64,000 nt of DNA. It comes from an uncultured Pelagibacteraceae bacterium (GTDB lineage Bacteria > Pseudomonadota > Alphaproteobacteria > Pelagibacterales > Pelagibacteraceae). Shown piece by piece: positions 9,795-45,427 of this stretch (its first letter is position 1; each line of letters starts with the position of its first letter). The DNA is taken from positions 62,001 through 126,000 of the forward strand of contig CACBIY010000003.1 in the NCBI GenBank assembly GCA_902539445.1. The letters are read 5' to 3'. The notes below the pieces were generated by a model that saw nothing but the letters and a program-made list of their open reading frames with translations, ran no database searches and had not been told where the DNA came from. The translations under genes and the position numbers were made by a program.

Positions 9795-10482
9795 TTTTTT
9801 TATTCAACTTAGTTAAAATTGCTGCTGTCAGTAAAGCAGTTACTCCAGCGACAATTACATATGCTTTATAAGGAACATAATTAAATCCAAACGTTGCCAC
9901 TAACCCTGAAATAATTATCACAATCACATTTATCAATTTTCTAAAATCGTTAACCAATAATGCCAAAAAAGTTAAAGGCACTGCAAAACTTAAACCTAGT
10001 TTTTCAGGAATAAAAGCTCCCAAAACAATTCCTAAAAAAGTGGTTGTCTGCCAAATAACCCAACAAGTAATACCACCACCGAATAAATGAAAATATTTAT
10101 TTTTATCTTTATTTTTTTTAAAATACTCATTTGATCTTGCAAAAGCTTGGTCAACTAAAAAATATGAGATTATAATTTTCCAAATAAGTTTTAAATCTGA
10201 TAAATGTTCTGAAACAACAGCTCCATACAAAAGATGTCTTGAGTTCACTGCTCCAACTGAACTTATTATAACTAAAGATGAGGCGCCTCCTGAAAATAAT
10301 TGCAGTAAAACAATTTGTGAAGCACCGCCAAAGACTATTAATGACATTCCCATTGTTTCTATTGGGCTAAATCCAATATCGATTGAAAGAACCCCAAATA
10401 TTAAACCAAATGGAACAACTGGAATCATCAGTGGGCTAACATCAAAAATACCCTTTAAAAAAACTCTAAATTTATTATTCAT
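9787..10482 (-). CDS. azlC: AzlC family membrane protein (branched-chain amino acid export)
   Basis: A 231-aa membrane protein with the AzlC core (PFGLIFGVLSIDIGFSP, GGASQIVLLQLF, NSRHLLYGA). It lies 15 bp after the iron transporter ATPase gene on the same strand and overlaps azlD. It is the large subunit of the two-part AzlCD exporter. Co-transcription with an Fe(III) transporter is unusual but may simply reflect genome compaction. Confidence 0.9.
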   Translation of the reverse strand: MNNKFRVFLKGIFDVSPLMIPVVPFGLIFGVLSIDIGFSPIETMGMSLIVFGGASQIVLLQLFSGGASSLVIISSVGAVNSRHLLYGAVVSEHLSDLKLIWKIIISYFLVDQAFARSNEYFKKNKDKNKYFHLFGGGITCWVIWQTTTFLGIVLGAFIPEKLGLSFAVPLTFLALLVNDFRKLINVIVIIISGLVATFGFNYVPYKAYVIVAGVTALLTAAILTKLNKKNE

Positions 10483-10497
10483 TTTAGAGAGTTTTTA

Positions 10498-11559
10498 TTA
10501 GAAGCAAACAATATGATCAATATGAATTGGTCTTTTTATGCCAAATTTTTCATTCTCCTCGTGTTGATGAATATGGTGAGAGTGAACAAAAACTGGAATT
10601 AATAAATTACTTGGCGTTTTAAGAGTGTAGATAAAATTTGTGCCCCTAAACTTTCTATCTATAACTTCAAATTTTAAATTGCTTTGGTCATCATGATGTA
10701 AGTCCTCTGGTTGAACCAAAAGTTTTACTTTTGATCCTATTGGAAAAGGTTTATTAAAATTACCCGTAATTGTTCCAAGATCTTTATTTTCTAAACTCTT
10801 AGGACTTGTAACCTCTGCAGGAATTAGGATGCCTCTATTTAAAAAATTAACTACCTCTATTGAGTTTGGTAAATGATAAACGTTATATGGATCATCAAAT
10901 TGTTTGAGCTCCTGATTTAAAATAATTCCACATTTTGATCCTAAATAAAATGCTTCATAAGAGTCATGGGTTACAATTATTGTTGAAATTTTTAATTTAT
11001 TAAGAATTTTTTTTAATCTCACTTGAATTTCTTCTTTAAAACTTTGATCTACATTTGATAAAGGCTCATCTAACAATAATAAATCTGGTTGAGTCATTAA
11101 AGATCTTGCTAATGAAGCTCGTTGTGCCTCACCAGCACTTATCTCATGTGGGTATTTGTTGAGAATATGAGATATATCTAATAAATCTATAATTTCTTTT
11201 ACATCAATTTTTTTTTCAATTTTTTCTTTATTCTTCTCTGTACCTAATAAAATATTTTTTTGAACATCATAATGTGGAAATAAACTATTATCTTGAAAAG
11301 CGAGAGATACATTTCTATTTTCAGGTTCAATATTAATTTTTTCTGATGAAAGAACTTTTCCATTTAATTCTATTGAACCTTTTTTTATTCTCTCTAAGCC
11401 AGCGATTGTTCTAAGTATGGTAGTTTTTCCAATACCAGATGGGCCTAAAAGGCAAATTACATCACCCTCTTTTTCAATCGAAAAAGAAACATTTTTTACT
11501 TTAGTTTTTCCATCAATATTAAAATCAACATTCTTTATTTCAAAAAAATTTTTACTCAT
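10498..11559 (-). CDS. fbpC: Fe(III) ABC transporter ATP-binding protein
   Basis: A 353-aa ATPase with Walker A (GPSGIGKTT, ~residue 39), an ABC signature variant (ISAGEAQRASLARSL, ~142) and Walker B (LLLDEPLSNVD). A C-terminal TOBE-like domain covers about residues 270-340. It belongs to the polyamine/iron/sulfate importer group. The His-rich tail (HSHHIHQHEE) is notable. The first base pairs overlap the end of the permease gene by 8 bp. Confidence 0.88.
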   Translation of the reverse strand: MSKNFFEIKNVDFNIDGKTKVKNVSFSIEKEGDVICLLGPSGIGKTTILRTIAGLERIKKGSIELNGKVLSSEKINIEPENRNVSLAFQDNSLFPHYDVQKNILLGTEKNKEKIEKKIDVKEIIDLLDISHILNKYPHEISAGEAQRASLARSLMTQPDLLLLDEPLSNVDQSFKEEIQVRLKKILNKLKISTIIVTHDSYEAFYLGSKCGIILNQELKQFDDPYNVYHLPNSIEVVNFLNRGILIPAEVTSPKSLENKDLGTITGNFNKPFPIGSKVKLLVQPEDLHHDDQSNLKFEVIDRKFRGTNFIYTLKTPSNLLIPVFVHSHHIHQHEENEKFGIKRPIHIDHIVCF

Positions 11560-13171
11560 TATTATCTCTTAATATATATTTAGATGTAATTATAATGAAA
11601 GAAGTTGCAATTAAAATTAAAAATAACGATGGGACTGCAGCAGCCTCTAATAAATCTTCGGATGCGGATATATAAGCTGTAGTTGCAAAAGTCTCAAAAT
11701 TAAAAGGCCTCAAGATTAAAGTAATAGGTAATTCCCTTATAATCTCTAAAGAAATCAATATACAAACAAATAATAAAGAGTTTCTCAAGAAGGGTATATG
11801 AATATTCATAAATGTTTTTCGTTTTGAATAACCTAGCAAATAAGAACTTTCATCTACTGAGATATTAATTTTTTCATATCCAGATTTAATTCCATTAAAG
11901 GCCAAAGAATAAAATCTTACAAAATACACAAGAACTAATCCTAAAATAGAGCCAATAAATATTTTCTTGATAGAAAATAATCCTAGATTTTTAACAACAC
12001 TCTCGTCGAACCAAGCTATGAAAGTTATAAATGCGACTGCTAAAATTACACCAGGTATTGCATATCCTGAAATTGATAAAGTTGATAAAATATTTAAAGT
12101 TTTATTTTTTGTAACTCTATTTCCATAGTTTGAGATTAAAGAAAACATTATTAATACAAAGCTTGATAAAATAACTAAATAAAGTGTATTACTCAAAAGA
12201 TTAATAATTTGTAGATCAAATAAATTTTCTGGAAATTTAATTGTCCAATACAACATTTGACTTAAAGGAAATAAAAAACTTAAAAAGAAAACAAGAAAAC
12301 AAAAAAGGAAAGCAGCTATTGATTTGGTTCCCTTAAGTTGTAACTTCTGTTTTTGTTTAAAACCTCCTTTTGAATTAAAGTGATATTTCGCCTTATTTCT
12401 TGATAAATTTTCTAATATAAACAAGGCAAATATGAACAATAATAAGAAGAATGATAACTGATTTGCAAAAGCAAGGTCATCAAATGTTATCCATGAATTA
12501 TATATTCCTGTAGTAAGTGTATTTATTGAAAAAAAATCTACTGCCCCAAATTCTGCTAGTGTTTCCATTGCAACTAAAGATAAGCCAGCAACTATTGCTG
12601 GTCGTGCTGCAGGGAGAATAATTGAATATAATGTTTTAAAATTTGTAAAACCCAAGTTTTTACCTAGGTCAATGAAGTTTTGTGATTGATATAAAAACGA
12701 AGCTCTAGCTAAAATATATACGTATGCAAATAATGAAAAAGAAAGAGATAGTATGACTCCAATCATTCCATCAAATTTTGGAATATATAAATTATAATTT
12801 TTATCTCCAAATAAGTTTTTTAAAATAGAATATGCTGTACCGTAATTTTCAAAAAAGGCTGTTAATGAATAAGCATAAATATATGGAGGAACTGCAAATG
12901 ATAGTATCAATGCCCATTTAAAAAAATTACTTAATGGAAATTCATAAAAAGATACCAAGTATGCAGTTCCAGTTCCAATCAAAAAAGTTAATAATAGAAC
13001 ACTTATCAATAAAATTATGGAGTTAGAAATATACTCAAATAAAAAAGTATCTCTTAAAATTCCATAGTAATTTGATGTGGATTCAAAAAAACTTAAAAAT
13101 ACAGTTAGAGTTGGAATAATAACAAAAATAGAAATGAAAAGAGAAGATATATACCAAAAATTTATTCTCAT
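11552..13171 (-). CDS. fbpB: Fe(III) ABC transporter permease (fused two-domain type)
   Basis: A 539-aa inner-membrane protein made of two BPD_transp_1 halves, each with an EAA-type loop (for example NLGFTNFKTLYSIILPAARP and LLGYSKRKTFMNIHIPFLR). About 12 hydrophobic segments are visible. This fused layout is typical of FbpB/SfuB iron permeases. It is separated from the upstream Cys-rich gene and fbpA by a strong hairpin (13208-13237), which may lower permease expression relative to the binding protein. Confidence 0.9.
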   Translation of the reverse strand: MRINFWYISSLFISIFVIIPTLTVFLSFFESTSNYYGILRDTFLFEYISNSIILLISVLLLTFLIGTGTAYLVSFYEFPLSNFFKWALILSFAVPPYIYAYSLTAFFENYGTAYSILKNLFGDKNYNLYIPKFDGMIGVILSLSFSLFAYVYILARASFLYQSQNFIDLGKNLGFTNFKTLYSIILPAARPAIVAGLSLVAMETLAEFGAVDFFSINTLTTGIYNSWITFDDLAFANQLSFFLLLFIFALFILENLSRNKAKYHFNSKGGFKQKQKLQLKGTKSIAAFLFCFLVFFLSFLFPLSQMLYWTIKFPENLFDLQIINLLSNTLYLVILSSFVLIMFSLISNYGNRVTKNKTLNILSTLSISGYAIPGVILAVAFITFIAWFDESVVKNLGLFSIKKIFIGSILGLVLVYFVRFYSLAFNGIKSGYEKINISVDESSYLLGYSKRKTFMNIHIPFLRNSLLFVCILISLEIIRELPITLILRPFNFETFATTAYISASEDLLEAAAVPSLFLILIATSFIIITSKYILRDNNE

Positions 13172-18758: not shown

Positions 18759-20378
18759 TTACATATTTCCATACTTAGGTCCACCACCACCCTCAGGTGT
18801 AACCCAAGTAATATTTTGGGATGGTTCTTTGATATCGCAAGTTTTACAATGAATACAGTTCTGCGCATTAATAACAAATTTGTTTATATCGTTTTCTTTT
18901 TGAACCTCATAAACTCCTGCTGGGCAGTACCTTTGTGCAGGTTCATCGTACATTTCGAGTGTATAATTTATAGGTAAATCCTTATCCTTTAACTGTAAGT
19001 GTACTGGCTGATTATCCTCATGGTTAGTTCCAGTTAAATAAACTGAGCTTGTTTTATCAAAAGTAATCACATTATCAGGTTTTGGGTAATCAATTTTTGG
19101 CATCTTATTTGCAGGTTTTAACGTCTCATGATCTGCATGCTTATGTTTTAAAGTAAAAGGAAGTTTTCCTCTAAATAAAATTTGATCAATTCCTGTAAAA
19201 ATTATTCCTAAAATTAAACCCCATGTGAAACTTGGTTTAACATTTCTTGCTTTATATAATTCTTTATAAAGCCAACTTTCTTTAAAGATTTTTTCATAAA
19301 CAGATAGATCATCACCTTTCTCAAAATGAAAATTTATTGTTTCAGCAGCTATAATTCCACTTTTCATAGCAGTATGAGAACCTTTTATTTTTGGCATGTT
19401 TAAAGTTCCTGCATCACACCCGATAAGTAATGCTCCTGGCATAAACATTTTTGGTAAACTTTGAATGCCACCTTCAATTAAAGCTCTAGCGCCATAGGAG
19501 ATTCTTTTTCCACCTTCGATAATTTTTTTTATTGATGGATGTGTTTTAAATCTTTGAAATTCATCAAAAGGAGAAAGATGAGGATTTTGATAATCTAAAC
19601 CTATCACGTATCCTAAAAAAACCTGTTTGTTTTCAGCATGATAAATAAAACTTCCACCATAAGTGTTATTATCTAATGGCCATCCAGCTGTATGCATCAC
19701 TAATCCTTCTACATGATTTTTTTCATCAATTTCCCAAATTTCTTTAAATCCAATTCCATATTGTTGAGGATCTTTGTCTTTATCTAGATTAAATTTTTTG
19801 ATCAATTGTTTTCCTAAATGACCACGACAACCTTCTGCAAAAACTGTAACTTTGCCTAGAAGTTCAATACCTGGTTCAAAGCTATCTTTTTTATCTCCTT
19901 GTTTATCTATTCCCATGTCCTGAGTGGCTACGCCCTTAACAGATCCATCGTCATTAAATAAAATCTCACTTGCAGGAAATCCTGGAAATATTTCTACACC
20001 AAGTGCTTCTGCTTGCTCAGCAAGCCATCTGCATAAATTTGCAAGACTAATGATATAATTATTATGATTTTTTTGGACAGAGGGTAACAACCATGTGGGC
20101 CAACTTAATGAATTTTTTTTTCCTAAAAATAAAAATTTTTCTTTTGAAACTTTAGTTTTTATTGGTGCATTTAAATCTTTCCAGTTTGGAATTAATTCGT
20201 CCAGTGCTCTAGTTTCAAAAACATTTCCACTTAATATATGTGCACCGATCTCAGATGCTTTCTCTAAAACACAAATATTTAAATTTGAATTTAATTGTTT
20301 TAATTTAATAGCAGTTGTTAATCCTGATGGTCCTCCACCAACAATTACAACATCGTATTCCATTGACTCTCTGGACAT
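18759..20378 (-). CDS. Electron-transfer flavoprotein:ubiquinone oxidoreductase
   Basis: A 539-aa protein. It has an N-terminal FAD motif (VVIVGGGPSGLTTAIKL), the central membrane-association and quinone region, and a C-terminal ferredoxin-like domain with the 4Fe-4S cysteines (RYCPAGVYEV, NCIHCKTCDIK). It ends in the typical PEGGGGPKYGNM. It passes electrons from reduced ETF to ubiquinone at the membrane. It lies 21 bp after etfA in the DMGDH-etfBA operon and is probably dedicated to that dehydrogenase plus fatty-acid and amino-acid oxidation. Confidence 0.97.
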   Translation of the reverse strand: MSRESMEYDVVIVGGGPSGLTTAIKLKQLNSNLNICVLEKASEIGAHILSGNVFETRALDELIPNWKDLNAPIKTKVSKEKFLFLGKKNSLSWPTWLLPSVQKNHNNYIISLANLCRWLAEQAEALGVEIFPGFPASEILFNDDGSVKGVATQDMGIDKQGDKKDSFEPGIELLGKVTVFAEGCRGHLGKQLIKKFNLDKDKDPQQYGIGFKEIWEIDEKNHVEGLVMHTAGWPLDNNTYGGSFIYHAENKQVFLGYVIGLDYQNPHLSPFDEFQRFKTHPSIKKIIEGGKRISYGARALIEGGIQSLPKMFMPGALLIGCDAGTLNMPKIKGSHTAMKSGIIAAETINFHFEKGDDLSVYEKIFKESWLYKELYKARNVKPSFTWGLILGIIFTGIDQILFRGKLPFTLKHKHADHETLKPANKMPKIDYPKPDNVITFDKTSSVYLTGTNHEDNQPVHLQLKDKDLPINYTLEMYDEPAQRYCPAGVYEVQKENDINKFVINAQNCIHCKTCDIKEPSQNITWVTPEGGGGPKYGNM

Positions 20379-20399: not shown

Positions 20400-21353
20400 T
20401 TATTTTTGTATAGTGTTTAATTTGTTCAGTTCCTCAATAAATTGGGGTACTGCTTCAAAAAGATCAGCTTCTAGACCATAGTCTGCAACACTAAAAATTG
20501 GAGCTTCGCCATCCTTATTGATTGCGACAATCACCTTGCTTTCTTTCATTCCAGCTAAATGCTGAATAGCACCAGAAATACCAATCGCAATATATAAATC
20601 TGGAACTACAACTTTTCCAGTTTGACCCACTTGATGATCGTTGCTTATATATCCAGCATCCACAGCTGCTCTTGACGCTCCAATAGCAGCATTTAATTTA
20701 TCAGCAACAGATGTGATTAATTTAAAATTGTCTCCACTCTGCATTCCTCTTCCACCAGAAACAACCACTCTTGCAGTTCCAAGTTCTGGTCTATCTGACT
20801 TAATTTCCTCTCTTTTTACAAATTTTGTATTATTAAACTCTTCACTTGGTTCAGCTTTTTCAATTGGCGCAGATCCGCCTGAACTCTCACATGGATCAAA
20901 AGAAGTTGGTCTAATAGTAATACATTTTTTTGGATCCTTGCTTTTTACTGTTGCAAATGCATTTCCAGCATAAATTGGTCGTAAAAATGTATCTGCAGAA
21001 ATTACCTTGATAATATCACTGACTTGAGAAGTATCTAAAGAAGCTGCAATCCTTGGCATCAAATTTTTACCAAATGTATTAGCTGAACAAACAACATGTG
21101 AATAGTTTTCTGCCAATTTCACTATTACTGGTGCAAAATTTTCTGCCACAAAGTTTTCGTAATGAGCTGCTTCTACTTGAATTACTTTTTTGACCAAAGG
21201 TAACTCTGATAATTTTTTTGCTACATCTCCACAGTTATTACCAATAATTACAGCATGAAGATCGGTATTCATTTGAGAGGCCGCAGTTACAGCATTAAGT
21301 GTGAAAGGTTTGAGTTCTTTATTGTTATGTTCTGCAACTAATAAAACTGACAT
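20400..21353 (-). CDS. etfA: Electron transfer flavoprotein alpha subunit
   Basis: A 317-aa protein with the C-terminal FAD domain of EtfA (VVSGGRGMQSGDNF, GASRAAVDAGYI, QVGQTGKVVVPDLYIAIGIS). It carries the FAD that takes electrons from acyl-CoA, dimethylglycine or sarcosine dehydrogenases. Its start shares a base with the etfB stop. Confidence 0.97.
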   Translation of the reverse strand: MSVLLVAEHNNKELKPFTLNAVTAASQMNTDLHAVIIGNNCGDVAKKLSELPLVKKVIQVEAAHYENFVAENFAPVIVKLAENYSHVVCSANTFGKNLMPRIAASLDTSQVSDIIKVISADTFLRPIYAGNAFATVKSKDPKKCITIRPTSFDPCESSGGSAPIEKAEPSEEFNNTKFVKREEIKSDRPELGTARVVVSGGRGMQSGDNFKLITSVADKLNAAIGASRAAVDAGYISNDHQVGQTGKVVVPDLYIAIGISGAIQHLAGMKESKVIVAINKDGEAPIFSVADYGLEADLFEAVPQFIEELNKLNTIQK

Positions 21354-22102
21354 TATATTACTTTAGCCTCATTTTTTAATTTTTGCACTAGCTCAGCCAC
21401 ACTTTTTACTTTTATACCAGCTTTTCTTTTTGGTGGCTCTTCAACCTTAATTTGCTCGATTCTTGGTGATGTATCTACTCCTAAATCTGACGCATTTATT
21501 TGCTCAATAGGTTTCTTTTTAGCCTTCATTATGTTTGGCAAAGACGCATATCTTGGTTCATTAAGTCTTAAATCACAAGTTACAATAGCAGGAATATTGA
21601 TCTCTATTGTCTCTAATCCTTCGTCGATCTCTCTCGTAACTTCAAGTTTTTTATCTTTAATCTCTATCTTTGAAGCAAATGTTGCTTGAGGCCAATTTAG
21701 TAAAGCACTTAACATTTGACCTGTTTGATTACAATCATCATCAATTGCTTGTTTTCCCATAAAAACTAAATCTGGTTTTTCTTTTTCAACAATTTTTTGT
21801 AATAATTTGGAAACGGCTAAAGGTTCTAAAATTCCATCAGCTTTAATAAGAATGCCTCTATCAGCTCCAACCGCTAATGCTTTACGAACAGTTTCTTGAG
21901 CTTTCTCTTCTCCAACACTTACTGCAACTACTTCGGTCGCTTTTCCTGACTCTTTGATTTTTACTGCCTCCTCAATCGCATTATCATCTGGTGGATTGGT
22001 AGACATCTTAACATTTTCAGTTACTACACCAGTGTTATCCTCTTTAACTCTGACTTGAACATTGTAATCAATTACTCTTTTTACTGCGACTAAAATTTTC
22101 AT
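21353..22102 (-). CDS. etfB: Electron transfer flavoprotein beta subunit
   Basis: A 249-aa protein with the EtfB signature and recognition loop ([21 protein letters not shown], ~residue 184). It binds AMP and docks to partner dehydrogenases. It shares a base with the stop of the DMGDH-like gene upstream and with etfA downstream, giving strict translational coupling. Confidence 0.97.
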
Positions 22103-24534
22103 TAGGCTCTCAAAAGTTTATTTTCAGCATCGTATGGACTTTCCTCTACTATTGTAGCCTCATACATTTTTCCTAGAATATCAACTTTAAGTTTTTCTCC
22201 AACATTTGCTAAATCAGGTTTCACCATGGCTAAGGCAATAGATTTATCTAATCTAAATCCGTATTCCCCGCCTGTTGCTCGCCCAACGACTTTGTCATCT
22301 TTATAAATTGGATTGTTACCTAAAACATCTGAGTCTGTTGTGTCATGAACCTCTAGTGTTACTAATTTATTATCAAAACCCTTTTCTCTCCATTTGTTTA
22401 GTGCATCAAGTCCTATGAAATTACCCTTGTTTGGATGAATAAATCTGTCTAGGCCAGACTCATAAGGTGAATACTCAATTGATAGTTCAGTTCCCACAAG
22501 TTTATAAGATTTTTCTACTCTTAAACTGTTCATCGCTCTGATGCCAAAAGGTTTAAGACCGAGATCCTTACCTGCTTCCATTAATTTATCAAAAATATGG
22601 TTTTGATATTCAATTGGGTGATGTAATTCCCAACCTAGTTCACCAACAAAATTTACTCTCATAGCATTTACTGGAGCATATCCAACATTAACATTTTTTG
22701 CAGTTAACCATTTAAAATTTTCATTTGAAAAATCATCAGTTGAAACTTTTTGCATAAGTTCTCTAGCTTTTGGGCCTGCTACAACAAGCACACCTGTACT
22801 ATTTGTTAAGTCTTCAAAAATAACCGAACCATCAGTTGGCATCCATTTTTGAATCCAATCATGGTCTAATCTCAAATTCGCTCCAGCTGAAACCAAATAA
22901 TAACTATTTTCAGCTTCTTTCATAATTGTAAACTCAGAGTGAACACCACCTTTAGTATTTAGCGCATGACACAAATTAATTCTTCCGATTTTTTTTGGAA
23001 GTTTGTTAGCGACTAAGTAGTCTAAAAATTCTTCAGCCTTTGGACCTTTTATTCTACATTTTGCAAAGGCTGTCATATCCAAAAGTCCAACATTCTTTTT
23101 AACGTTTTCACATTCTTTCTTAATTGCATCAAACCATTTTGATCTTCTAAATGACCAATGATCTTTTTGTTCCATGCCATCTGTTGCAAAAAAGTTTGGT
23201 CTTTCCCATCCAAATTTTTGTCCAAAGACAGCACCAAGATTTTTCATTCTTTCATAACAAGGAGATGTTCTTAAAGGTCTTGCAGCTGGTCTCTCTTCAT
23301 CAGGATAATGAACAATAAATACATGACTGTATGCTTCCTCATTTTTTGCTTTAAGATAAGACTTTGTTGCATAATTTCCGTAACGTCTTGGTTCAACACC
23401 AAGCATATCAATCGTTGGTTCACCATCAACGATCCATTCTGCTAATTGCCAACCTGCTCCACCAGCTGCAGTTATTCCAAAACTATGTCCCTCATTAATC
23501 CAAAAATTTTTAAGTCCCCAGGCTGGACCAACAATTGGATTACCATCTGGTGTGTAACATATTGCACCATTATAAACTTTTTTCACTCCAACTTCTCCAA
23601 ATGCCGGAACTCTATGTATTGCTCCCTCAATGTGTGGAGCAAGTCTATCTAAATCTTCTTGAAACAATTCATATTCAGAATCTTTTGAGGGACCTTCTAC
23701 ATAACACGCTGGTGCACCATCTTCATATGGACCTAATATTAATCCACCAGCCTCCTCTCTCATATACCATCTACTATCGCTATCTCTTAATACACCCATC
23801 TCTGGTAGACCTTCTTTTTTTCTTTTTTGTATTTCTGGATGCGGTTCAGTTACAATATATTGATGTTCCACAGGAATAACTGGAATATCTAATCCAACCA
23901 TTTCACCAGTTTGTCTTGCAAAATTTCCTGAGCATGAAATGACATGTTCACATTCAATTGATCCTTTGTCTGTTTCAACAATCCATCCTTCTTTAGTTTG
24001 TCTCATTGATAACACTGTTGTATTTCTATAAATCTCAGCTCCCCTGTTCCTAGCACCTGTGGCAAGTGCCTGTGTTAAGTCTGCAGGTTGGATGTATCCA
24101 TCTTCTGGGTGTTGAATTGCTCCAACTAAATCATCAGTATGACAAAGCGGCCAAATTTCTTTAACTTGTTGAGGTGTCAAAAATTTTACGTCAACACCAA
24201 TTGTTTTAGCTACACCAGCATATTGATGATACTCATCCATTCTATCTTTGGTACTAGCTAAACGGATATTTGAAACAACACTGAAACCAACATTCTTACC
24301 AGTCTCTTCCTCTAACTTTTTATAAAGATTTACTGCATACTTGTGAAGTTGACCAACAGAATAGCTCATATTAAAAAGAGGTAGCAAACCTGCTGCATGC
24401 CAAGTTGAGCCTGAGGTTAATTCTTTTCTTTCAACTAAAACAACATCTGACCAGCCTTTTTTTGCTAAATGATAAAGAGCGCTTACTCCAACAACTCCTC
24501 CACCGACTACGACGACTTTTGCTTTAGATTTCAT
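22102..24534 (-). CDS. Dimethylglycine/sarcosine dehydrogenase-like FAD protein with GcvT domain
   Basis: An 810-aa two-part enzyme. Residues ~5-380 form a DAO-type FAD domain ([17 protein letters not shown], then [11 protein letters not shown], whose His is the usual covalent FAD attachment site). Residues ~430-800 form a GcvT/aminomethyltransferase domain ([29 protein letters not shown]). This is the layout of DMGDH and sarcosine dehydrogenase, which demethylate to methylene-THF and hand electrons to ETF. It leads the operon with etfBA and ETF-QO, supporting an ETF-dependent role. Dimethylglycine is favoured because a sarcosine oxidase exists elsewhere in the window. Confidence 0.88.
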
Positions 24535-26459: not shown

Positions 26460-26834
26460 CTATTTAAGCTTACCCTCTTCTCTCATCTTTGCTCTTATTT
26501 TAGTAGCTGAAATTTTTTGTATTTCCTCAGGTAAAACAATTTCTTCTATTTTGTAACCAACACCTCTTCCATAACAAATGTTTGTAATATTGGGAACTAA
26601 CATAATTTTAAAACGTCCCTCGAATTCTGGATTAAGTTTATCTTCAATATTTTTTTTTACTGTTTCAAAATCAAATGGATTATCATCAACACCTTGTACG
26701 TCTCTGATTTGAATACAAACTTGTCCAGTTTTCTTAATTATTTCTTTAAATAAAGTATAGTGACCATCATGAAATGGTTGCCATCTTCCAAGCATTTGAG
26801 CAGTTGGTTTTTTATTATCCCACTTGTAAGTCAT
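26460..26834 (-). CDS. Cytidylyltransferase-fold nucleotidyltransferase
   Basis: A 124-aa protein with a clear nucleotidyltransferase start motif (GRWQPFHDGHYTLF, HxGH type) and a C-terminal ISATKIRAKM motif. Both are features of the NMN/pantetheine-phosphate/glycerol-phosphate transferase superfamily. It shares a base with the adenylylsulfate-kinase-like gene upstream, so the two very likely act together. The substrate is unknown. Confidence 0.72.
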   Translation of the reverse strand: MTYKWDNKKPTAQMLGRWQPFHDGHYTLFKEIIKKTGQVCIQIRDVQGVDDNPFDFETVKKNIEDKLNPEFEGRFKIMLVPNITNICYGRGVGYKIEEIVLPEEIQKISATKIRAKMREEGKLK

Positions 26835-27241
26835 TATTTTAATTTCTCATATATCTTTGGAGCCCAATTTTTAGCATCTTGAGTTGTTACATGAAAGTCA
26901 TACTTATCAGGTTTTACAAACATTTTATTTGTATCATCAAACCTACCCTCCTTAATTGTATCTACCCAAATAATAAAATCTGCTGGAAATAAACTTCTTG
27001 CCTCAGGAGTAGGACAAATAAAATCTGCTACAACATAATTTCCATCATTTTTCAATTTTACTGCAAAGTCAGCCATTCTTTTTGCTTGTCTTTTTCTTCC
27101 TTCCTCAGAAAAATCCCAATCATTCGCCTCTTTTCTAACTTCATCTGCGTTCAATCTTTTAGCGTTTAACATTGGACCAAGTTCGTTTGCTAACGTAGTT
27201 TTTCCAGATCCAGGTAGTCCCATTATTAAAATTATTTTCAT
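26834..27241 (-). CDS. Adenylylsulfate kinase-like P-loop kinase
   Basis: A 135-aa protein, shorter than typical CysC (~200 aa). It has a P-loop (GLPGSGKTTLA, residues 7-17), RLNADEVRKEANDWDFS and VVADFICPTPEAR, as in APS kinases. No sulfate adenylyltransferase lies near. SAR11-type cells generally lack assimilatory sulfate reduction, so a role other than APS phosphorylation is likely. It is paired with the nucleotidyltransferase. Confidence 0.75.
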   Translation of the reverse strand: MKIILIMGLPGSGKTTLANELGPMLNAKRLNADEVRKEANDWDFSEEGRKRQAKRMADFAVKLKNDGNYVVADFICPTPEARSLFPADFIIWVDTIKEGRFDDTNKMFVKPDKYDFHVTTQDAKNWAPKIYEKLK

Positions 27242-27287: not shown

Positions 27288-28016
27288 ATGAAATTTTCTC
27301 TTGAAATAGGCCCTCAGACAGATCTTGATACAGTACCTCAAGTAAAAGATGTTTATATCACAATGCTTCCAGGGGGTGACTATAGAGAAACAGCTCAACA
27401 GGCAGTTGAGTTAGTTAAAAGGGGTTTTAATCCTGTTCCTCATTTTCCTGCAAGGTCAATGCTGGATGAAAAACAACTAAAAGATTATGTCTCTAGGTGT
27501 AAAGATGGTGGGGTTAAACAAGTTTTAGTAATTGGTGGAGGGAGAGAACCAATGGGAAAATTTGATAGCTCGTTTCAACTTTTAGAGACTGGTTATTTTG
27601 AGAAGATGACAATAGGAATTGCTGGACACCCAGAGGGGAGTCCTGATATATCCGACTCAGATTTAGAAAAAGCTATGATAGATAAAAAGCCTTATGCTGA
27701 TTACATCGTAACCCAATGGTTATTAGATCCACAGCCTATTATAGATTTTGTTTCTAAACAAAGTGTACCAGTGCATGTGGGAATTACTGGGCCTCTAAAA
27801 ATATCTAGCTTAATAAAGTTTGCTAATATTGTTGGTGCAAAAAATTCTCTAAATTTTCTTAAATCTAATTTTAGTAAGGCGTTAGATTTATTAAAACCTA
27901 AAGACCCTAATGATTTAATTGGGAAAGTTAAATCGCATACTGATTTCTTCCACATTTATACATTCGGCGGCTTGAAGGAAACAAACAAGTGGTTGAAGGA
28001 GAATGGTTATGTCTAA
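27288..28016 (+). CDS. Methylenetetrahydrofolate reductase-like protein (short MetF homologue)
   Basis: A 242-aa TIM-barrel protein related to MetF but shorter than the usual ~290 aa. It has LEIGPQT near the start, NPVPHFPARSM, VLVIGGGREPMGKF, GIAGHPEG and VTQWLLD. It probably binds FAD and folate and interconverts methylene- and methyl-THF. It overlaps the GcvT-family demethylase by 8 bp. Such pairs usually process the methyl-THF formed by the demethylase. Confidence 0.82.
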   Translation: MKFSLEIGPQTDLDTVPQVKDVYITMLPGGDYRETAQQAVELVKRGFNPVPHFPARSMLDEKQLKDYVSRCKDGGVKQVLVIGGGREPMGKFDSSFQLLETGYFEKMTIGIAGHPEGSPDISDSDLEKAMIDKKPYADYIVTQWLLDPQPIIDFVSKQSVPVHVGITGPLKISSLIKFANIVGAKNSLNFLKSNFSKALDLLKPKDPNDLIGKVKSHTDFFHIYTFGGLKETNKWLKENGYV

Positions 28017-29367
28017 AGAATTTGACTATACTAAACTAAAACATGTTACTTCTGTTGATCAGTCAGATCGAAAAGTACCATACAATTTAAGACAAAGTGG
28101 GCCAACAAAAGTTGAAATGTTAATTTCGACAAGAGTAAGAAAATCTCCATATTGGCATTTATCAATGCAAGCGGGTTGTTGGAGAGCAACTGTTTATAAT
28201 AGAATTTATCATCCTAGGGGATATGTGAAACCTGAGGATGGTGGTGCAATGGTTGAGTATGATGCAATTGTAAATCATGTAACTATGTGGAATGTTGCTG
28301 TTGAAAGACAGATCCAAGTAAAGGGTCCTGATGCAGAAAAATTTGTTGATTACGTGATAACTCGAGATGCAACAAAAATCTCTCCGATGCGAGCAAGATA
28401 TGTAATTTTATGTAACGCTTACGGAGGAGTTTTAAATGATCCAATACTTTTAAGAATTGCAAAAGATGAATTTTGGTTTTCTTTATCAGACTCGGACATT
28501 GGAATGTATTTACAAGGTGTTAATGCAGACGGTAAATTTAATTGCACTATCGAAGAAATAGATGCATGTCCTGTTCAAATTCAAGGGCCTAAATCAAAAG
28601 CTCTTATGAAAGATTTGTTAGGTGATCAGGTTGATTTAGAAAATATGCCTTTCTATGGTTTAGCTGAAGTTAAGGTTGCCGGAAGAAGTTGTGTTATCTC
28701 TCAATCAGGTTTTTCAGGTGAAGCTGGATATGAAATATATTTAAGGAATGCAACTTTATATGCCGATGAGATGTGGAATGCTGTTCTTGAAGCTGGAAAA
28801 AAACACCAGCTAATGGTTATTGCCCCTGCTCACCACAGAAGAATTCAAGCTGGGATTCTTTCTTGGGGTCAAGATATGGATCAACAACATAACCCTTTCC
28901 AGTGTAATTTAGGTTATCAAGTTTCTTTATCAGGAAAAGGAGAATGGAAAAAAACTTCTGATTACGTAGGAAAAAAAGCTCTTGAAAAAATGGGCGCTGA
29001 AATCAAAGCTGGAAAAAAACCATATAAGTTACAGTTGGTTGGTCTTGAGTTAGGAGGAAAACCAATTGATGATTATGCACCAGATTTTTGGTTGATATCT
29101 AATGCAGATGGTGGTGATCCAGTTGGTTTTGTAACATCACCGTGGTGGCATCCTGAAAAGAAAACTAATATTGCTATGGGATATGTTCCATTTGATGGAA
29201 CTTTAAATGCCAATGGCTTTCCTAAAGGTAAAGTTGGAACTAAATTTAAAGTTCATTTACCAGAGAAATATTCAGATAAACCAGGAACACCTGTTGATGC
29301 CGTTATAGTTGATATTCCATTTAAGGAATCTTATAACGCTAACACAAGAGAAGTGGTATCAGGTTAA
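28009..29367 (+). CDS. GcvT-family tetrahydrofolate-dependent demethylase, substrate unknown (DmdA/LigM-like)
   Basis: The ATG at 28009 has GGAG 7 nt upstream and is preferred to 28003, giving 452 aa. It carries the GcvT fold (VERQIQVKGPDAEKFVDYV, GVLNDPILLRI, SQSGFSGEAGYEIYLR, HHRRIQAGILSWG). Length and partner resemble the O-demethylase LigM (~470 aa, beside metF) more than SAR11 DmdA (~370 aa as I recall it). The MetF-like neighbour suggests methyl transfer to THF from an S-, O- or N-methyl compound. DMSP demethylase activity cannot be ruled out. Confidence 0.78.
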   Translation: MSKEFDYTKLKHVTSVDQSDRKVPYNLRQSGPTKVEMLISTRVRKSPYWHLSMQAGCWRATVYNRIYHPRGYVKPEDGGAMVEYDAIVNHVTMWNVAVERQIQVKGPDAEKFVDYVITRDATKISPMRARYVILCNAYGGVLNDPILLRIAKDEFWFSLSDSDIGMYLQGVNADGKFNCTIEEIDACPVQIQGPKSKALMKDLLGDQVDLENMPFYGLAEVKVAGRSCVISQSGFSGEAGYEIYLRNATLYADEMWNAVLEAGKKHQLMVIAPAHHRRIQAGILSWGQDMDQQHNPFQCNLGYQVSLSGKGEWKKTSDYVGKKALEKMGAEIKAGKKPYKLQLVGLELGGKPIDDYAPDFWLISNADGGDPVGFVTSPWWHPEKKTNIAMGYVPFDGTLNANGFPKGKVGTKFKVHLPEKYSDKPGTPVDAVIVDIPFKESYNANTREVVSG

Positions 29368-38508: not shown

Positions 38509-39096
38509 CTATTTATTTTCGTATCCAAACTCTAATGATGCATCAGTAATAGAATGGTATAAAGACTCCCCAAAACTCCTTAATGTGAATAACCTTACTT
38601 TGGATGGCTTATCATTAAGTAAGTCTACTGTAAAAGCAATATTATTATAAAGAGAATTTATTGAATTATTTTTTTTTAAAATATCAAAATTAAATGGTGA
38701 TCCTTTTTTTAAAACTTCTAATACATAATTTCCCTCTATTTCAATTACAGCTCTTGAATGAGATAAATCAGTAACTGCAAAATCAGTTTCTTTACATGTT
38801 AAAGAAATATTTTTAATTAGATCTTTTTTTGAGGATACTAACAGCCAATTTTTTGGGCCATTCCATAAGATTCTTGTATTTTCATTGAAAGCCACATTCA
38901 ATGAAAAGTCTTTTAGTTTTAAACCGTCAATATCAATACTTTCAATTTGAATATTAGAATTTTTGAACTGTACTATTTGAACAATTAATAAATTTTTTTT
39001 TTCTGAAATTTTTAATAAGTCATCGCCTTTTTTGTCCTCAAAGTCTCCAAATTGTCCTTGATGATGAACATTGGCTAGCGCAGAAATTAAACTCAT
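38509..39096 (-). CDS. soxG: Sarcosine oxidase-type gamma subunit
   Basis: A 195-aa protein like the gamma subunit of heterotetrameric sarcosine oxidase: weak similarity to GcvT, with DLSHSRAVIEIEG and FGESLYHSITDA. It overlaps soxA by 4 bp as the last gene of soxBDAG. The same order is used by mgdABCD (N-methylglutamate dehydrogenase), so assignment to sarcosine is not certain. Confidence 0.82.
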   Translation of the reverse strand: MSLISALANVHHQGQFGDFEDKKGDDLLKISEKKNLLIVQIVQFKNSNIQIESIDIDGLKLKDFSLNVAFNENTRILWNGPKNWLLVSSKKDLIKNISLTCKETDFAVTDLSHSRAVIEIEGNYVLEVLKKGSPFNFDILKKNNSINSLYNNIAFTVDLLNDKPSKVRLFTLRSFGESLYHSITDASLEFGYENK

Positions 39097-42089
39097 GATC
39101 TCACTCGCTCACCTTTTGGGTCAACATAATGTGAAGACACTATCTCAACTGGAATTACTTTATTTTTAAGAGGTGACATTACGAATAGCTTTTCTCCTAT
39201 CATATTCTTACCATCTTTTAAAATTGCTAAAGAAAATGGATTATCGTGTTCAACACTCCAACATGAAGCTGAAATATAACCTAATTTTGGATTTGGAAGT
39301 GGTGCATTTGAATCTTTAACTAAATGAGATCCTTCCGGAATACTTGTTTTTTTATCTAATGGGACAACACCAACAATTTTTTGTCTATCTTCAGCTGCAA
39401 AAGCTTTTCTTGATAAAGATCTTTTTCCAATAAAATCTTTCTTTTTGCTAAGAAGTCCCTCAAGAGAATTGTCATAAGGAATAGTTCTTCCATCAAGCTC
39501 TGAACCTGCGACATGTCCCATCTCAATTCTTAATGTTGAAAGTGCTTCTGTTCCATATGGTTGAATTCCAAACTCTTCACCAACTTCTATTATTTTTTCC
39601 CACATAAAATATCCATAATCTGACTCAACATTTACTTCGTATGCAAGTTCACCAGAGAATGAAATTCTAAAAATTTTAGCTTTTACTCCAAACAAATCAC
39701 CTTCCATATAACCCATAAAAGGAAGTCCTTCATTCGTAACATCAGACTTTGGAAAAAGTTTTTTTAATACTTCTCTTGATTTTGGTCCAGCAATTGCTGC
39801 TCCCGCCCACTGTTCTGTCGTTGAAACTACATTTACATTTAATTCTGGCCAAACAAGTTGTAAGTAATATTCTAGATGTGATAGAACATTAGCAGCTTGA
39901 GCAGTTGTTGTAGTCATATGGTAATGATTTTCTGATATTCTTGTTGTTGTTCCATCATCCATAACAATTCCATCTTCTCTCAACATCACACCATATCGTG
40001 CTTTGCCGACCGGTAATTTTAACCATGCATTTGTATAAACTCTATTTAGAAGCTCTGCTGCATCTGGTCCTTTAATATCAATTTTACCTAAAGTGGTAAC
40101 GTCACAAACACCAACATTAGTTCTTACATTTTTAGCCTCTCTTTTTGATGCCTCAAATAAATTTTCATCACCACGTTTGTAATACCTTGGTCTTAACCAT
40201 ACACCCGCATCAACAAAGACTGCGTTATTTTTTTCATGCCATGAATGCATTGGAGATTTTCTTGTTGGTTTTGAATGTTTTCCTACTTCCCTTCCAACAA
40301 TTGCTCCAATAGAAACTGGTGAGTAGGGTGGTCTAAAGGTTGTATGCCCAACTGCTGGTACAACTTTATTTTCAATTTTCGACACTAGTTGTAAGCCATT
40401 AAGATTACTTGTCTTACCTTGGTCAGTAGCCATACCAAGTGTAGTATATCTTTTTACATGTTCAATAGATCTATACCCTTCTTTAAGAGCTATCTCTATA
40501 TCAGAAACTGCAACATCATTTTGGAAATCTAAAAATCTTTTGTAGTTTTTTCCCTTTGGTAAGGGTACACACCAAAATTTATCATGTACTGTAGATTTCT
40601 TTTCAACAACATTGGGGAAAGAAACCTTATTCTCTTTATTTGTTATTTTTTTTGATAATTGGTTTCCTTTTTCAAATGAGTCTTTTAATGTCTCTTCTAA
40701 AGTGTAAATTCCATTTGCAGCCCCTAAGGTTTTTTCTTTTTGTTTAGATATACCAGGAACAAATGCATCAATTTCCTCATTAAATTTTGTTTTATTTCCA
40801 GATTGTGATGCCAAATGAATTGTAGGTGTCCAAAAACCAGAAACACAAATACAATCACACTCAATATTTTCAATTGATCCAAGTTCCTCTTTATTATCTG
40901 AAATTTTAGCTATGTCAGCTGATTTTACTTTTTTATATCCTTGAGCAGCTACAACTACATATGAATTTTTAATATTGATATTCATATTTTTTGCCTCTTC
41001 AATTATTTCTGATTGAGGTTCTTTTCTTGTATCTAAAATTATTGGATCAATACCATTTTTTTTAAATTCAATTGCTGTTTCATAACCACTGTCATTATTT
41101 GTAAAAACAAGCGGTTTTTTTCCAACTAATACTCCGTACACTTTCATGTATTCCTTAGCGGCTGAAGACAACATTACGCCAGGAGTGTCATTATTACCAA
41201 ATACAATAGGTCTCTCTATAGATCCAGATGAGATTAATACTTCTTTTGCTCTAATATACCAAAGTCTTTGTTTTGGATGATATTTTTTTGTTTTTGGTAA
41301 ATGGTCACTAATTCTTTCAGACATAACCAACATGTTATGATCATAATAACCAAAAACTTGAGATCTGTTTTTTACAGTAACATTAGGCATTTCTTTAAGC
41401 TCTGAAATGATACTATCTGCCCACTCTTTACCTGATTGATTCCCTATATTTACTTCACTAGTTAATAAAGTTCCTCCAAATCGTGATTTGTCTTCAGCAA
41501 GAATAACTTTTGCACCATTTTTTGCGGCTGAGTAGGCACTTGCTAATCCCGAAGGACCTGAACCTGTTATTAACAAATCACAATATTCATATTTATGTTC
41601 ATATCTTTCTTTATCATGTTTTATAGATGCTGTACCCAAACCAGCAGCTCTTCTGATAAATGGCTCATAAATTTTATACCAAAAACTTTTTGGCCACATA
41701 AAAGTCTTGTAATAAAAACCAGCTGGGAGAAATATCTTTAAAAAATTATTTATAGCTCCCACATCAAAATTCACACTTGGCCAACAATTTACACTTTTTG
41801 CTTCTAAACCCTCAAAAAGTTCCTGTTCAGTAGCTTTTATATTTGGTTCTGTTTCACCATTTCTATATAATTGAACTATCGCATACGGCTCATCAACTCC
41901 GGCACCAAAGAAACCTCTGGGTCTATGATATTTGAAGCTTCTTCCAATAAGATGAACTCCATTAGCAATTAATGCAGAAGCAAGGGTATCGCCCTCATAA
42001 CCAAAATAATTTTTACCATTAAATTTAAAAGAAATTTTTTTATCTCTATTTATTAATCCACCACTTTCTAATCTAAAACTTTGTGTCAT
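39093..42089 (-). CDS. soxA: Sarcosine oxidase-type alpha subunit (or MgdC)
   Basis: A 998-aa protein. The N-terminal ferredoxin-like fold has DTLASALIANGVHLIGRSFKYHRP (shortened here to the key motif GRSFKYHRPRG). A central NAD-binding region follows (LLITGSGPSGLASAYSAAKN), then a C-terminal GcvT-like THF domain from about residue 600 (RISFSGELAYEVNVE). The last part takes the methyl carbon to methylene-THF. It shares a base with soxD. It oxidises sarcosine, or N-methylglutamate if this is an Mgd complex. Fhs is divergent just beyond soxB. Confidence 0.9.
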   Translation of the reverse strand: MTQSFRLESGGLINRDKKISFKFNGKNYFGYEGDTLASALIANGVHLIGRSFKYHRPRGFFGAGVDEPYAIVQLYRNGETEPNIKATEQELFEGLEAKSVNCWPSVNFDVGAINNFLKIFLPAGFYYKTFMWPKSFWYKIYEPFIRRAAGLGTASIKHDKERYEHKYEYCDLLITGSGPSGLASAYSAAKNGAKVILAEDKSRFGGTLLTSEVNIGNQSGKEWADSIISELKEMPNVTVKNRSQVFGYYDHNMLVMSERISDHLPKTKKYHPKQRLWYIRAKEVLISSGSIERPIVFGNNDTPGVMLSSAAKEYMKVYGVLVGKKPLVFTNNDSGYETAIEFKKNGIDPIILDTRKEPQSEIIEEAKNMNINIKNSYVVVAAQGYKKVKSADIAKISDNKEELGSIENIECDCICVSGFWTPTIHLASQSGNKTKFNEEIDAFVPGISKQKEKTLGAANGIYTLEETLKDSFEKGNQLSKKITNKENKVSFPNVVEKKSTVHDKFWCVPLPKGKNYKRFLDFQNDVAVSDIEIALKEGYRSIEHVKRYTTLGMATDQGKTSNLNGLQLVSKIENKVVPAVGHTTFRPPYSPVSIGAIVGREVGKHSKPTRKSPMHSWHEKNNAVFVDAGVWLRPRYYKRGDENLFEASKREAKNVRTNVGVCDVTTLGKIDIKGPDAAELLNRVYTNAWLKLPVGKARYGVMLREDGIVMDDGTTTRISENHYHMTTTTAQAANVLSHLEYYLQLVWPELNVNVVSTTEQWAGAAIAGPKSREVLKKLFPKSDVTNEGLPFMGYMEGDLFGVKAKIFRISFSGELAYEVNVESDYGYFMWEKIIEVGEEFGIQPYGTEALSTLRIEMGHVAGSELDGRTIPYDNSLEGLLSKKKDFIGKRSLSRKAFAAEDRQKIVGVVPLDKKTSIPEGSHLVKDSNAPLPNPKLGYISASCWSVEHDNPFSLAILKDGKNMIGEKLFVMSPLKNKVIPVEIVSSHYVDPKGERVRS

Positions 42090-42358
42090 TATGAAATTTC
42101 TTCGTTTGCTTTTAGAGTTTTAAAAATTTCATGAGTAGCTGTATCTCTCTGAACTTTTATCCATTGTCTGCAACCTGATAAATGTTGCCATAACTCCCAA
42201 TGCTTCCCTCTTAAACTTTTCCTATTATAAACAAAATTATCCCAATCTTGATCGGATATTTCTTTTCCTAATTCTGGCCGTTTAATAGTTGCATCACCAC
42301 CATATGAAAATTCATTCTGTGATCTCATTCCACAATGTGGACATTTTATATGAAGCAT
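42089..42358 (-). CDS. soxD: Sarcosine oxidase-type delta subunit
   Basis: An 89-aa zinc-binding subunit with CPHCGMRSQNEF near the start and a downstream GCRQW motif. These form the typical four-ligand zinc site of SoxD. It follows soxB without a gap and shares a base with soxA, in the canonical soxBDAG order. Confidence 0.93.
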   Translation of the reverse strand: MLHIKCPHCGMRSQNEFSYGGDATIKRPELGKEISDQDWDNFVYNRKSLRGKHWELWQHLSGCRQWIKVQRDTATHEIFKTLKANEEIS

Positions 42359-43615
42359 TTATGAAATCCAGGTTTTGGTACCAAGTCCCTTTTCGTCAAG
42401 TAAGTGACCAGTATTAAATCTATTTAAACTATAGCCAGCATTTAATTCATGAACTCTATCTTGCGCGATTGTATGTGCAAATGTCCAACCAGATGCAGGT
42501 GTTGCTTTAAATCCACCATAGCACCAACCACAATTTAAATACAAACCTTCAATATGGGTTTTGTCTATTATTGGTGAGCCGTCCATAGACATATCCATTA
42601 TCCCACCCCAAGTTCTAAGCATTTTTAATTTACTTAGGAAAGGCATCATTGCGATCCCTTCAGTCAGAACATGTTGAAGAGTTGGAAGATTGCCTCTTTG
42701 TGCATAACTATTGTAGCCATCAAGATCACCACCCATAACCATTTCACCTTTATCAGACTGGCTTATATAAAAATGTCCAGCACCAAAAGTAACTACTTTA
42801 TCTAAAACTGGTTTTACTGGCTCAGATACACATGCTTGTAGTAGATGCGTCTCAATTGGCAATGTCATATTTAATTTTTCAGCTAAAATATTTGTACTAC
42901 CTGCAACACATAATCCAATTTTTTTTGCTTTAATTTCTCCACGAGAAGTTCTCACTCCATTAATTTTTCCTGCAGACACATCAAATCCAATTACTTCACA
43001 ATTTTGAATTATGTCCACACCCATATCGTCTGCCTGACGTGCATAACCCCAAGCTACAGCATCGTGTCTAGCTGTTCCAGCGCTAGGTTGCATTAATCCC
43101 CCAAAGATTGGAAATCGTACATTCTCAGAAAAATCAGCCATAGGAATAATTTCTCTTACTTCTTCCCTATTTAAGAGAACTGCATCGATACCGTTTAATC
43201 TCATTGAATTTCCTCTTCGAGCATAAGTATTCATTTGTGCATCTGAGTGAGCAAGATTTATTATTCCTCTTGGAGAAAACATCACATTGTAATTCAAATC
43301 TTGACTCATTCTTCTCCAAAGATCCATTCCGAATTCGCTGAATAATGCATTGTCATCATGCATATAATTTGACCTAATTATTGTAGTGTTTCGACCAACA
43401 TTACCTCCACCAATCCAACCTTTTTCGATTATAGCAACATTGGTAATATTATGTTCTTTAGCTAGATAATATGCTGTTGCTAAACCATGTCCACCGCCAC
43501 CAATAATAACAACATCATACTCTTTCTTAGGAGTTGGATCTTTCCAAGCTAAGTCCCAATTTTCGTGATTTGAAAGGGCATTTTTAACAAGACTAAAAAC
43601 TGAATATTTTTGCAT
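42359..43615 (-). CDS. soxB: Sarcosine oxidase-type beta subunit
   Basis: A 418-aa FAD protein. It has VVIIGGGGHGLATAYYLAKEH at the N-terminus and the region RNTTIIRSNYMHDD, typical of heterotetrameric sarcosine oxidase beta, which also binds FMN near the alpha interface. It heads soxBDAG and is divergent to fhs over 126 bp. It could equally be MgdA-like; gmaS and mgsABC lie 14 kb away and would need such an enzyme. Confidence 0.9.
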   Translation of the reverse strand: MQKYSVFSLVKNALSNHENWDLAWKDPTPKKEYDVVIIGGGGHGLATAYYLAKEHNITNVAIIEKGWIGGGNVGRNTTIIRSNYMHDDNALFSEFGMDLWRRMSQDLNYNVMFSPRGIINLAHSDAQMNTYARRGNSMRLNGIDAVLLNREEVREIIPMADFSENVRFPIFGGLMQPSAGTARHDAVAWGYARQADDMGVDIIQNCEVIGFDVSAGKINGVRTSRGEIKAKKIGLCVAGSTNILAEKLNMTLPIETHLLQACVSEPVKPVLDKVVTFGAGHFYISQSDKGEMVMGGDLDGYNSYAQRGNLPTLQHVLTEGIAMMPFLSKLKMLRTWGGIMDMSMDGSPIIDKTHIEGLYLNCGWCYGGFKATPASGWTFAHTIAQDRVHELNAGYSLNRFNTGHLLDEKGLGTKTWIS

Positions 43616-43741: not shown

Positions 43742-45427
43742 ATGAGCGACATAAAATCAGATATTCAAATTGCTCGTGAAGCAAAAATGCTTCCAATAAA
43801 GGAAATCCTAGCGAAAGTAAATGTTCCAGACGAAAGTTCAGCTTTTAGCCCGATGGGAAGACATATTGCAAAAATAAACTTGGAATACTTAAATACATTA
43901 AAAGACAAGCCAGACGGTAAATTAATTTTAGTTACGGCAATAACTCCAACTCCTGCTGGAGAAGGTAAAACAACCACCTCCGTTGGATTAAACGATGGAC
44001 TAAATAAAATTGGAAAAAAATCTATTGTATGCTTAAGAGAACCAAGTCTAGGTCCATCCTTTGGTATGAAAGGTGGTGCTGCAGGAGGAGGATATGCTCA
44101 AGTAGTCCCAATGGAGCAAATTAATCTTCACTTTACTGGAGATTTTCACGCAATAACATCAGCACATAATCTTTTATCTGCTTTAATTGATAATCATATC
44201 TACTGGGGAAATAAATTAAACATAGATGTCAGAAGAATTGTTTGGAAAAGAGTTATGGATATGAACGACAGAGCTTTAAGATCAATTAATATTAATCTTG
44301 GCGGTGTTGCTAATGGTTTTCCAAGAGAAGATGGTTTTGATATCACGGTTGCTTCTGAGATAATGGCTATCTTTTGTCTTGCTAATAATCTTGAAGATTT
44401 AGAAAAAAGGATCGGAAATATTACTGTAGCATACACTCGAGAAAAAAAACCAATCTACGCTAAAGATTTAAATGCACATGGACCAATGACTGTTTTGCTT
44501 AAAGAGGCAATCAGACCTAATATTACACAAACACTAGAAAATAATCCTGCGATAATTCATGGTGGACCATTTGCAAATATTGCTCATGGATGTAATTCTG
44601 TAATTGCAACTAAAGCTGGATTAAAACTTGCTGATTATGTTGTAACTGAAGCAGGTTTTGGTGCAGATTTAGGAGCTGAAAAATTTTTAGATATCAAATG
44701 TAGGAAATCAAATTTAAAACCAAGTTGCGTTGTTATAGTAGCAACCGTTAGAGCCTTGAAGATGCATGGTGGTGTTACAAAAGATGATTTAAAGAATGAA
44801 AATGTAGATGCACTAAAAAAAGGATTAATAAATCTTGAAAGACATATTGAAAATGTGAAAAAATTTGGTTTACCTGTAGCAGTAGCTATAAATCATTTTA
44901 TAAAAGACACTGATAAAGAAGTAAATGCTTTAGTAGAATTTTGTAAAAAGCTAGGGGTTAAAGCTAGTATTTGTAAGCATTGGGCTGATGGTGGTGAAGG
45001 TACAAAGGATTTAGCTAAACATGTAACAGATTTATGTGAGAAGAATGAAGCTAAGTTTAAATTTTTATATGAAAGTAAAACTCCACTTTTCAAAAAAATA
45101 GAGACCATAGCAAAAGAGATTTATAGAGCTAATGAAGTTATTGCAGATACTAAAATCAGAGATCAATTAAAAAACTTTGAAGAAGCTGGTTATAGTGAGT
45201 TACCTATATGTGTTGCAAAAACTCAATATAGTTTCTCAACAGATCCAAATCTGAAAGGGGCTCCGACTGGTCATTCACTACCAATTAGAGAGATTAGGTT
45301 ATCATCTGGCGCGGAGTTCATTGTTGTTGTTTGTGGAGCAATCATGACAATGCCCGGACTTCCTAGAGTGCCAGCAGCTGACTCTATTAAGCTAAATAAA
45401 GACGGTGATATAGAAGGTCTATTTTAA
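43742..45427 (+). CDS. fhs: Formate-tetrahydrofolate ligase
   Basis: A 561-aa enzyme with the Fhs nucleotide-binding motif [38 protein letters not shown] and the C-terminal [18 protein letters not shown]. It interconverts formate and 10-formyl-THF with ATP. In this setting it probably runs towards formate and ATP from methyl groups oxidised on THF. It is divergent to soxBDAG and overlaps the convergent gpsA-like stop by 4 bp. Confidence 0.97.

Follow-up and report, generated by a model that had tools for sequence, protein, structure and literature searches.

The question raised by this locus is which methyl donor feeds a small one-carbon (C1) gene pair carried by SAR11 bacteria, which outnumber all other heterotrophs in the surface ocean, where glycine betaine ranks among the main osmolytes. 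The window, i.e. the whole stretch of 64,000 nucleotides analysed, comes from a SAR11 (Pelagibacter) genome of 1.10 Mb that is 92% complete, and it contains a gene for a MetF-like protein followed by a gene for a methyltransferase of the GcvT fold (Table 1). The pair itself has been known since 2011, when Sun et al. described SAR11_1264 (metF) and SAR11_1265 (an aminomethyltransferase that is close to DmdA and had no assigned substrate) in Ca. Pelagibacter ubique HTCC1062, a strain that oxidises the methyl groups of betaine to CO2 (PMC3160333). The transcripts of the two genes drop together in stationary phase (PMC5069961). Judged by family, gene order and description, SAR11_1264/1265 is the orthologous pair, with dmgdh, sox and fhs in the same region. 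A role with a DMSP methyl group was guessed there, whereas glycine betaine is proposed here. We propose that the 452-residue protein is a glycine betaine:tetrahydrofolate (THF) methyltransferase and that MetF oxidises the methyl-THF it would form, a reading to which we assign a probability of roughly 0.75 from comparison of sequences.

Table 1 Features of the window, in order of position
Feature	Position	Strand	Basis or remark
ETF-ubiquinone oxidoreductase (ETF-QO)	18759..20378	-	PF05187, PF21162
Electron transfer flavoprotein (ETF) alpha subunit	20400..21353	-	PF01012, PF00766
ETF beta subunit	21353..22102	-	PF01012
Dimethylglycine dehydrogenase (DMGDH)	22102..24534	-	810 aa; matches rat DMGDH over 2-799 (E 6e-197); would act next in the proposed pathway
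Small APS-kinase-like P-loop kinase and small nucleotidyltransferase-like protein	26460-27241	-	1-nt overlap
MetF-like gene	27288..28016	+	242 aa; proposed methyl-THF-oxidising partner
Shine-Dalgarno AAGGAG for the methyltransferase, inside metF	27996..28001	+	Read from the sequence
GcvT-fold methyltransferase gene	28009..29367	+	452 aa; proposed glycine betaine:THF methyltransferase
Clade-specific N-terminal motif VDQSDRxVPxNLRQSG	28054..28101	+	Residues 16-31; not in DmdA
Phe235 codon, position of the DMSP-contact Trp of DmdA	28711..28713	+	Alignment
SoxA	39093..42089	-	PF17806, PF01571
SoxD	42089..42358	-	PF04267
SoxB-like FAD subunit, heterotetrameric sarcosine-oxidase type	42359..43615	-	53% to soxB of L154 (passes TIGR01373); PF01266
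Formate-THF ligase (fhs)	43742..45427	+	PF01268, 899 bits
DUF1989 + GCV_T + GCV_T_C fusion	53405-55933	+	842 aa

The gene pair

The preliminary description of the locus had given a short MetF and a 452-aa GcvT-family protein, and both reading frames were confirmed on the forward strand; they overlap by 8 nt. The longest reading frame of the methyltransferase, from 28003, encodes 454 aa, but the ATG at 28009 is the likely start, since AAGGAG precedes it by 7 nt and the reading frames of the SAR11 loci L263 and L264 open at the same MSKEF. The 8-nt overlap is seen again in L264 (metF 9807-10535, methyltransferase 10528-11886). They lie side by side in every one of 80 named SAR11 contigs and also in a second Pelagibacterales family, where a formate-THF ligase gene lies divergently beside them, which indicates that the pairing is not due to chance. 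No orthologue of the methyltransferase was found in the Pelagibacteraceae genomes G138 and G415. The kinase-like and nucleotidyltransferase-like genes that precede metF in the window are kept in L262.

Genomic neighbourhood

The pair had been called an orphan C1 module, a label that does not fit a pair described in HTCC1062 in 2011 (PMC3160333) with betaine-type C1 genes 3-16 kb away. The dimethylglycine (DMG) dehydrogenase-ETF-ETF-QO module lies 2.8 kb from metF, and sarcosine oxidase and formate-THF ligase lie 10-14 kb from the pair. The DUF1989 fusion was rejected as a second DMGDH because its Pfam domains include no FAD domain, and it is not counted as evidence. In 62 SAR11 contigs the sequence extends for 5.5 kb or more upstream of metF, and 61 of these contigs carry a gene of the DMG dehydrogenase type there; the window-type DMGDH is present in 52 and a DMGDH-like gene (~36% identity) in 9, and BHMT is visible in 9. 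For instance, L264 has the order OpuAC, ProW/ChoW-like permease, MetF, methyltransferase, with BHMT and the DMGDH-like gene divergent. In that contig the window's DMGDH-ETF cassette is replaced by another one upstream of the pair (L264:1125-7512), made up of a Rieske oxygenase, a small methyltransferase, an amidinotransferase-like protein, the DMGDH-like protein and BHMT.

Beyond SAR11, where the carriers include other Alphaproteobacteria, orthologues of the window's DMGDH and/or soxA/soxB occur at 9 of 16 loci of the methyltransferase; of the 20 loci around DmdA-like proteins that served as controls, none has them (Fisher p 1e-4). These loci are not all independent, as families f32 and f77 contribute three genomes each; counted by family, the figures are 5 of 12 and 0 of 13 (p about 0.015). 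The other seven loci are without a DMGDH or sox neighbour. Linkage to the genes of DMG and sarcosine oxidation thus goes beyond chance (9/16 vs 0/20, and 61/62 in SAR11), as would be expected of a putative glycine betaine demethylase. Three loci (L153, L154, L156) form one directional cluster soxB-soxD-soxA-DMGDH-MetF-methyltransferase, and L165 has the order methyltransferase-MetF-fhs-DMGDH. Three genomes of family f206, of the same phylum and probably Gammaproteobacteria, have methyltransferase-MetF-fhs. In at least one of them (L240) a regulator above the GbdR cut-off and an L-serine ammonia-lyase stand beside fhs and MetF; GbdR is an activator responsive to betaine and DMG.

Homologues that are 53-57% identical to the methyltransferase are found on haloarchaeal megaplasmids of Haloarcula, Halobellus, Haladaptatus, Salinigranum and Halomicrococcus, next to MetF and varying sets of formate-THF ligase, FolD, GlyA, folate-synthesis genes, DMG-oxidase-like enzymes and a BCCT transporter. 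In Haladaptatus, the genes around the homologue include candidate enzymes for the conversion of betaine to pyruvate, and none is annotated as a Rieske oxygenase; in the H. marismortui cluster a Rieske oxygenase is present beside the pair, and Haloarcula halophila has a shorter homologue without such C1/DMG neighbours. As early as 2011 it was pointed out that DMG oxidases of haloarchaea lie close to BCCT transporters, with no enzyme named for the first step (PMC3102087). On the megaplasmids L270-L274, the methyltransferase is accompanied by folate islands (folP, pabB, DHFR, FolD, fhs, glyA, MetF).

Oxygenases are a further feature of several clusters. A PhyH-like oxygenase (19.7 bits to PhyH, just below the cut-off) recurs directly upstream of the methyltransferase (L155:7950-8849), beside soxB in three genomes (L154:30-860, L153:18906-19736, L156:19215-19808) and between fhs and DMGDH (L165:11308-12066). 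In two complete SAR11 genomes, G247 and G337, a Rieske oxygenase gene is divergent from metF at a distance of ~60-100 bp (L262:10260-11489, L263:10331-11527), and in a third SAR11 genome one lies near BHMT (L264:1125-2300). The protein beside the pair in G247 and G337 was rejected as GbcA (125 bits vs 670); its nearest solved relative is carnitine monooxygenase, and it may be some other betaine oxygenase.

Such genes bear on the most durable alternative, namely that the methyltransferase acts on a different betaine or quaternary ammonium substrate (carnitine, gamma-butyrobetaine, proline betaine, homarine or a choline derivative) and has only the later C1 steps in common with the glycine betaine pathway. 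The same fold could accept other donors, and both the recurrent PhyH-like oxygenase and the carnitine-monooxygenase-like neighbour in G247 and G337 would suit such a substrate. However, the constant companions are the DMG and sarcosine enzymes and the GbdR regulator, most clusters lack the oxygenases, and a search of the window's genome revealed no Rieske alpha subunit; we therefore regard this alternative as unlikely. Glycine betaine had been one of six candidate substrates in the preliminary description, and the comparative evidence now singles it out.

Relationship of the methyltransferase to DmdA

The methyltransferase belongs to the GCV_T family (PF01571; 139.8 bits, cut-off 25.6). Against the DmdA model NF009133 it scores 233 bits, below the equivalog cut-off of 410, and against the TMAO demethylase model NF053776 it scores 149 bits (cut-off 1100), with the C-terminal domain alone aligned and the protein short of the two-domain length. 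In the phylogenetic tree, 27 homologues, the haloarchaeal ones included, are split from 22 DmdA and DmdA-like proteins by a branch with 100/100 support, so that the methyltransferase stands opposite DmdA and does not cluster with it. This tree alone is used for our conclusions, as a wider tree with GcvT, DMGDH, SoxA and LigM has very long branches. In the bacterial set 56 positions tell the two sides apart, those of the N-terminal motif VDQSDRxVPxNLRQSG among them. At the position that contacts DMSP, Trp is present in all 22 DmdA and DmdA-like proteins and Phe in 26 of the 27 homologues, the sole exception with Trp being the most distant of them (L167). The contact residue was taken from PMC7487153 (W171 in its alignment numbering) and was equated with the Trp at protein position 197 via its spacing to a conserved Glu and Tyr.

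The AlphaFold model of the methyltransferase (mean pLDDT 84; residues 1-41 unreliable) has DmdA as its best match (3tfh), with a TM-score of 0.76 by query and 0.93 by target, and its fold also matches T-protein. THF-domain residues such as Asp144, Glu242 and Tyr244 are shared with DmdA, and methyl transfer to THF would be expected of both. In contrast, the two proteins are only 30-40% identical and belong to different clades, and the methyltransferase has an N-terminal extension, Phe for Trp and different neighbours. The window's genome encodes DmdA as a separate gene of 369 aa, in line with the earlier remark that the present protein is longer than the SAR11 enzyme.

DmdA membership is thus rejected on the score, the separate clade and Phe235. 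DmdA is nevertheless the nearest characterised relative, which would favour DMSP or methylmercaptopropionate (MMPA) as the substrate, in keeping with the guess of Sun et al. for SAR11_1265 that it takes the second methyl group of DMSP (PMC3160333). The same score, clade and Phe residue argue against this, as do the separate DmdA gene, the presence of homologues in haloarchaeal islands of the betaine type and the handling of MMPA by DmdB/DmdC in SAR11 (PMC5069961), and we consider a role with either compound very improbable.

Known betaine demethylases

The step proposed for the methyltransferase, from glycine betaine to DMG, is also that of BHMT, MtgBCD (PMC12478193) and GbcAB. These are unrelated proteins that use homocysteine, cobalamin and O2, respectively, whereas the methyltransferase would use THF directly. 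No report of a GcvT-type betaine demethylase was found in the literature searched, the scope of which excluded preprints and most subscription journals.

No BHMT was detected in the genome of the window, in G247 and G337 (both complete SAR11 genomes), or in G201, G160, G404, G115, G326, G298 and G056. Of the 21 genomes searched for MttB-family proteins (MtgB), 18 yielded none, among them G138 and G415, which are without the methyltransferase; G482, G542, G575 and G770 yielded none either. In four genomes (the window's, G201, G542 and G575) none of BHMT, MttB-family proteins and the GbcA-type Rieske alpha subunit was found; the window's genome being 92% complete, absence there could be a gap, while G542 and G575 are rated 100% complete. 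G542 and G575 do have PF02574 proteins, but these are MetH and short forms whose identity to BHMT, where they can be aligned, does not exceed 23%. In the window's genome the single PF02574 protein is of the short MmuM type and was rejected as BHMT, as it groups with short SAR11 homologues and is missed by a BHMT query at 1e-30; a SAM-V riboswitch lies upstream of its gene, as reported for mmuM. Other carriers of the methyltransferase have a known enzyme too, i.e. BHMT in many SAR11, GbcA in G770 (854 bits) and MttB in G341.

BHMT has been proposed as the SAR11 betaine demethylase, although the SAR11 Bhmt has not been experimentally validated (PMC12478193). It could be argued that BHMT performs all first-step demethylation of betaine in SAR11 and that the pair serves a minor, different C1 substrate, as BHMT occurs in many SAR11 genomes and at times adjoins the pair. 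The window's genome, G247 and G337, however, keep the pair and DMGDH with no BHMT found, which leaves this explanation with little probability.

The MetF partner

The MetF-like protein passes the gathering cut-off of PF02219 (26.8 bits vs 24), and the only solved relative found is 7xg9, a MetF of 288 aa that is similar over nearly the full length (E 6e-33). The window's protein is shorter and, as in the SAR11 genus, has GGG where related short MetF proteins have GGD, at a site that we take to be Asp120 of E. coli MetF. Changes at E. coli Asp120 alter the flavin potential, which for GGG is only a lead. MetF evolves much faster than the methyltransferase, with 52% vs 83% identity to family f2. 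The partnership is not universal, as a short MetF is found at only 4 of the 16 non-SAR11 loci. The protein is the only MTHFR-family match in the window's genome and SAR11 is without MetH and MetE (PMC12478193), and therefore the reductive direction has no known use. A search of the window for Rfam riboswitches gave none, as opposed to the SAM-V element at the mmuM-type gene, which fits a catabolic role of the pair. The earlier suggestion that methyl-THF is fed to MetF is supported by comparison.

LigM likewise pairs with MetF, and LigM and DesA share with the methyltransferase the GcvT fold and a similar length; yet a LigM-like O-demethylase of lignin-type aromatics is scarcely credible, given 41 bits to the LigM model NF047885 (cut-off 580) and 47 to the DesA model NF047633 (cut-off 800), a long separate branch of LigM in the wider tree, a TM-score of 0.58 against 0.76 for DmdA, and no aromatic genes at the loci examined. 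The preliminary description, which had itself recorded none near the pair, had left the choice between a methylated osmolyte and a lignin-like compound; the comparative evidence favours a THF-dependent osmolyte demethylase distinct from DmdA, and the lignin-like half is not supported.

Proposed mechanism and implications

We infer substrate, reaction and the direction of MetF from these comparisons, and propose the following series of steps. The methyltransferase would bind THF in its DmdA/GcvT-type fold and transfer one N-methyl group of glycine betaine to it, yielding DMG and 5-methyl-THF. The co-translated MetF would run oxidatively, from methyl-THF to methylene-THF. The remaining two methyl groups would then leave as methylene-THF through the action of sarcosine oxidase and of DMG dehydrogenase (via ETF and ETF-QO). 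Oxidation of the C1 units to CO2 by FolD, Fhs and formate dehydrogenase would bring a gain of ATP and reductant. Unlike the reaction of BHMT, the first step would thus yield energy without using homocysteine. Somewhat less firmly than the function itself, we hold that a THF-dependent relative of DmdA together with a methyl-THF-oxidising MetF probably constitutes a further betaine route, without cobalamin, homocysteine or O2, in SAR11, other Proteobacteria and haloarchaea, the last on megaplasmids with folate genes.

The first step in SAR11 is now assigned to the unvalidated BHMT, which ties each methyl group to methionine, and the window's genome and two complete relatives appear to be without it. 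If our proposal is true, a THF-dependent demethylase would explain how the methyl groups of betaine are burned for energy, its gene would serve as a marker of betaine use in metagenomes beside mtgC and bhmt, and the DmdA/GcvT fold would gain a new substrate.
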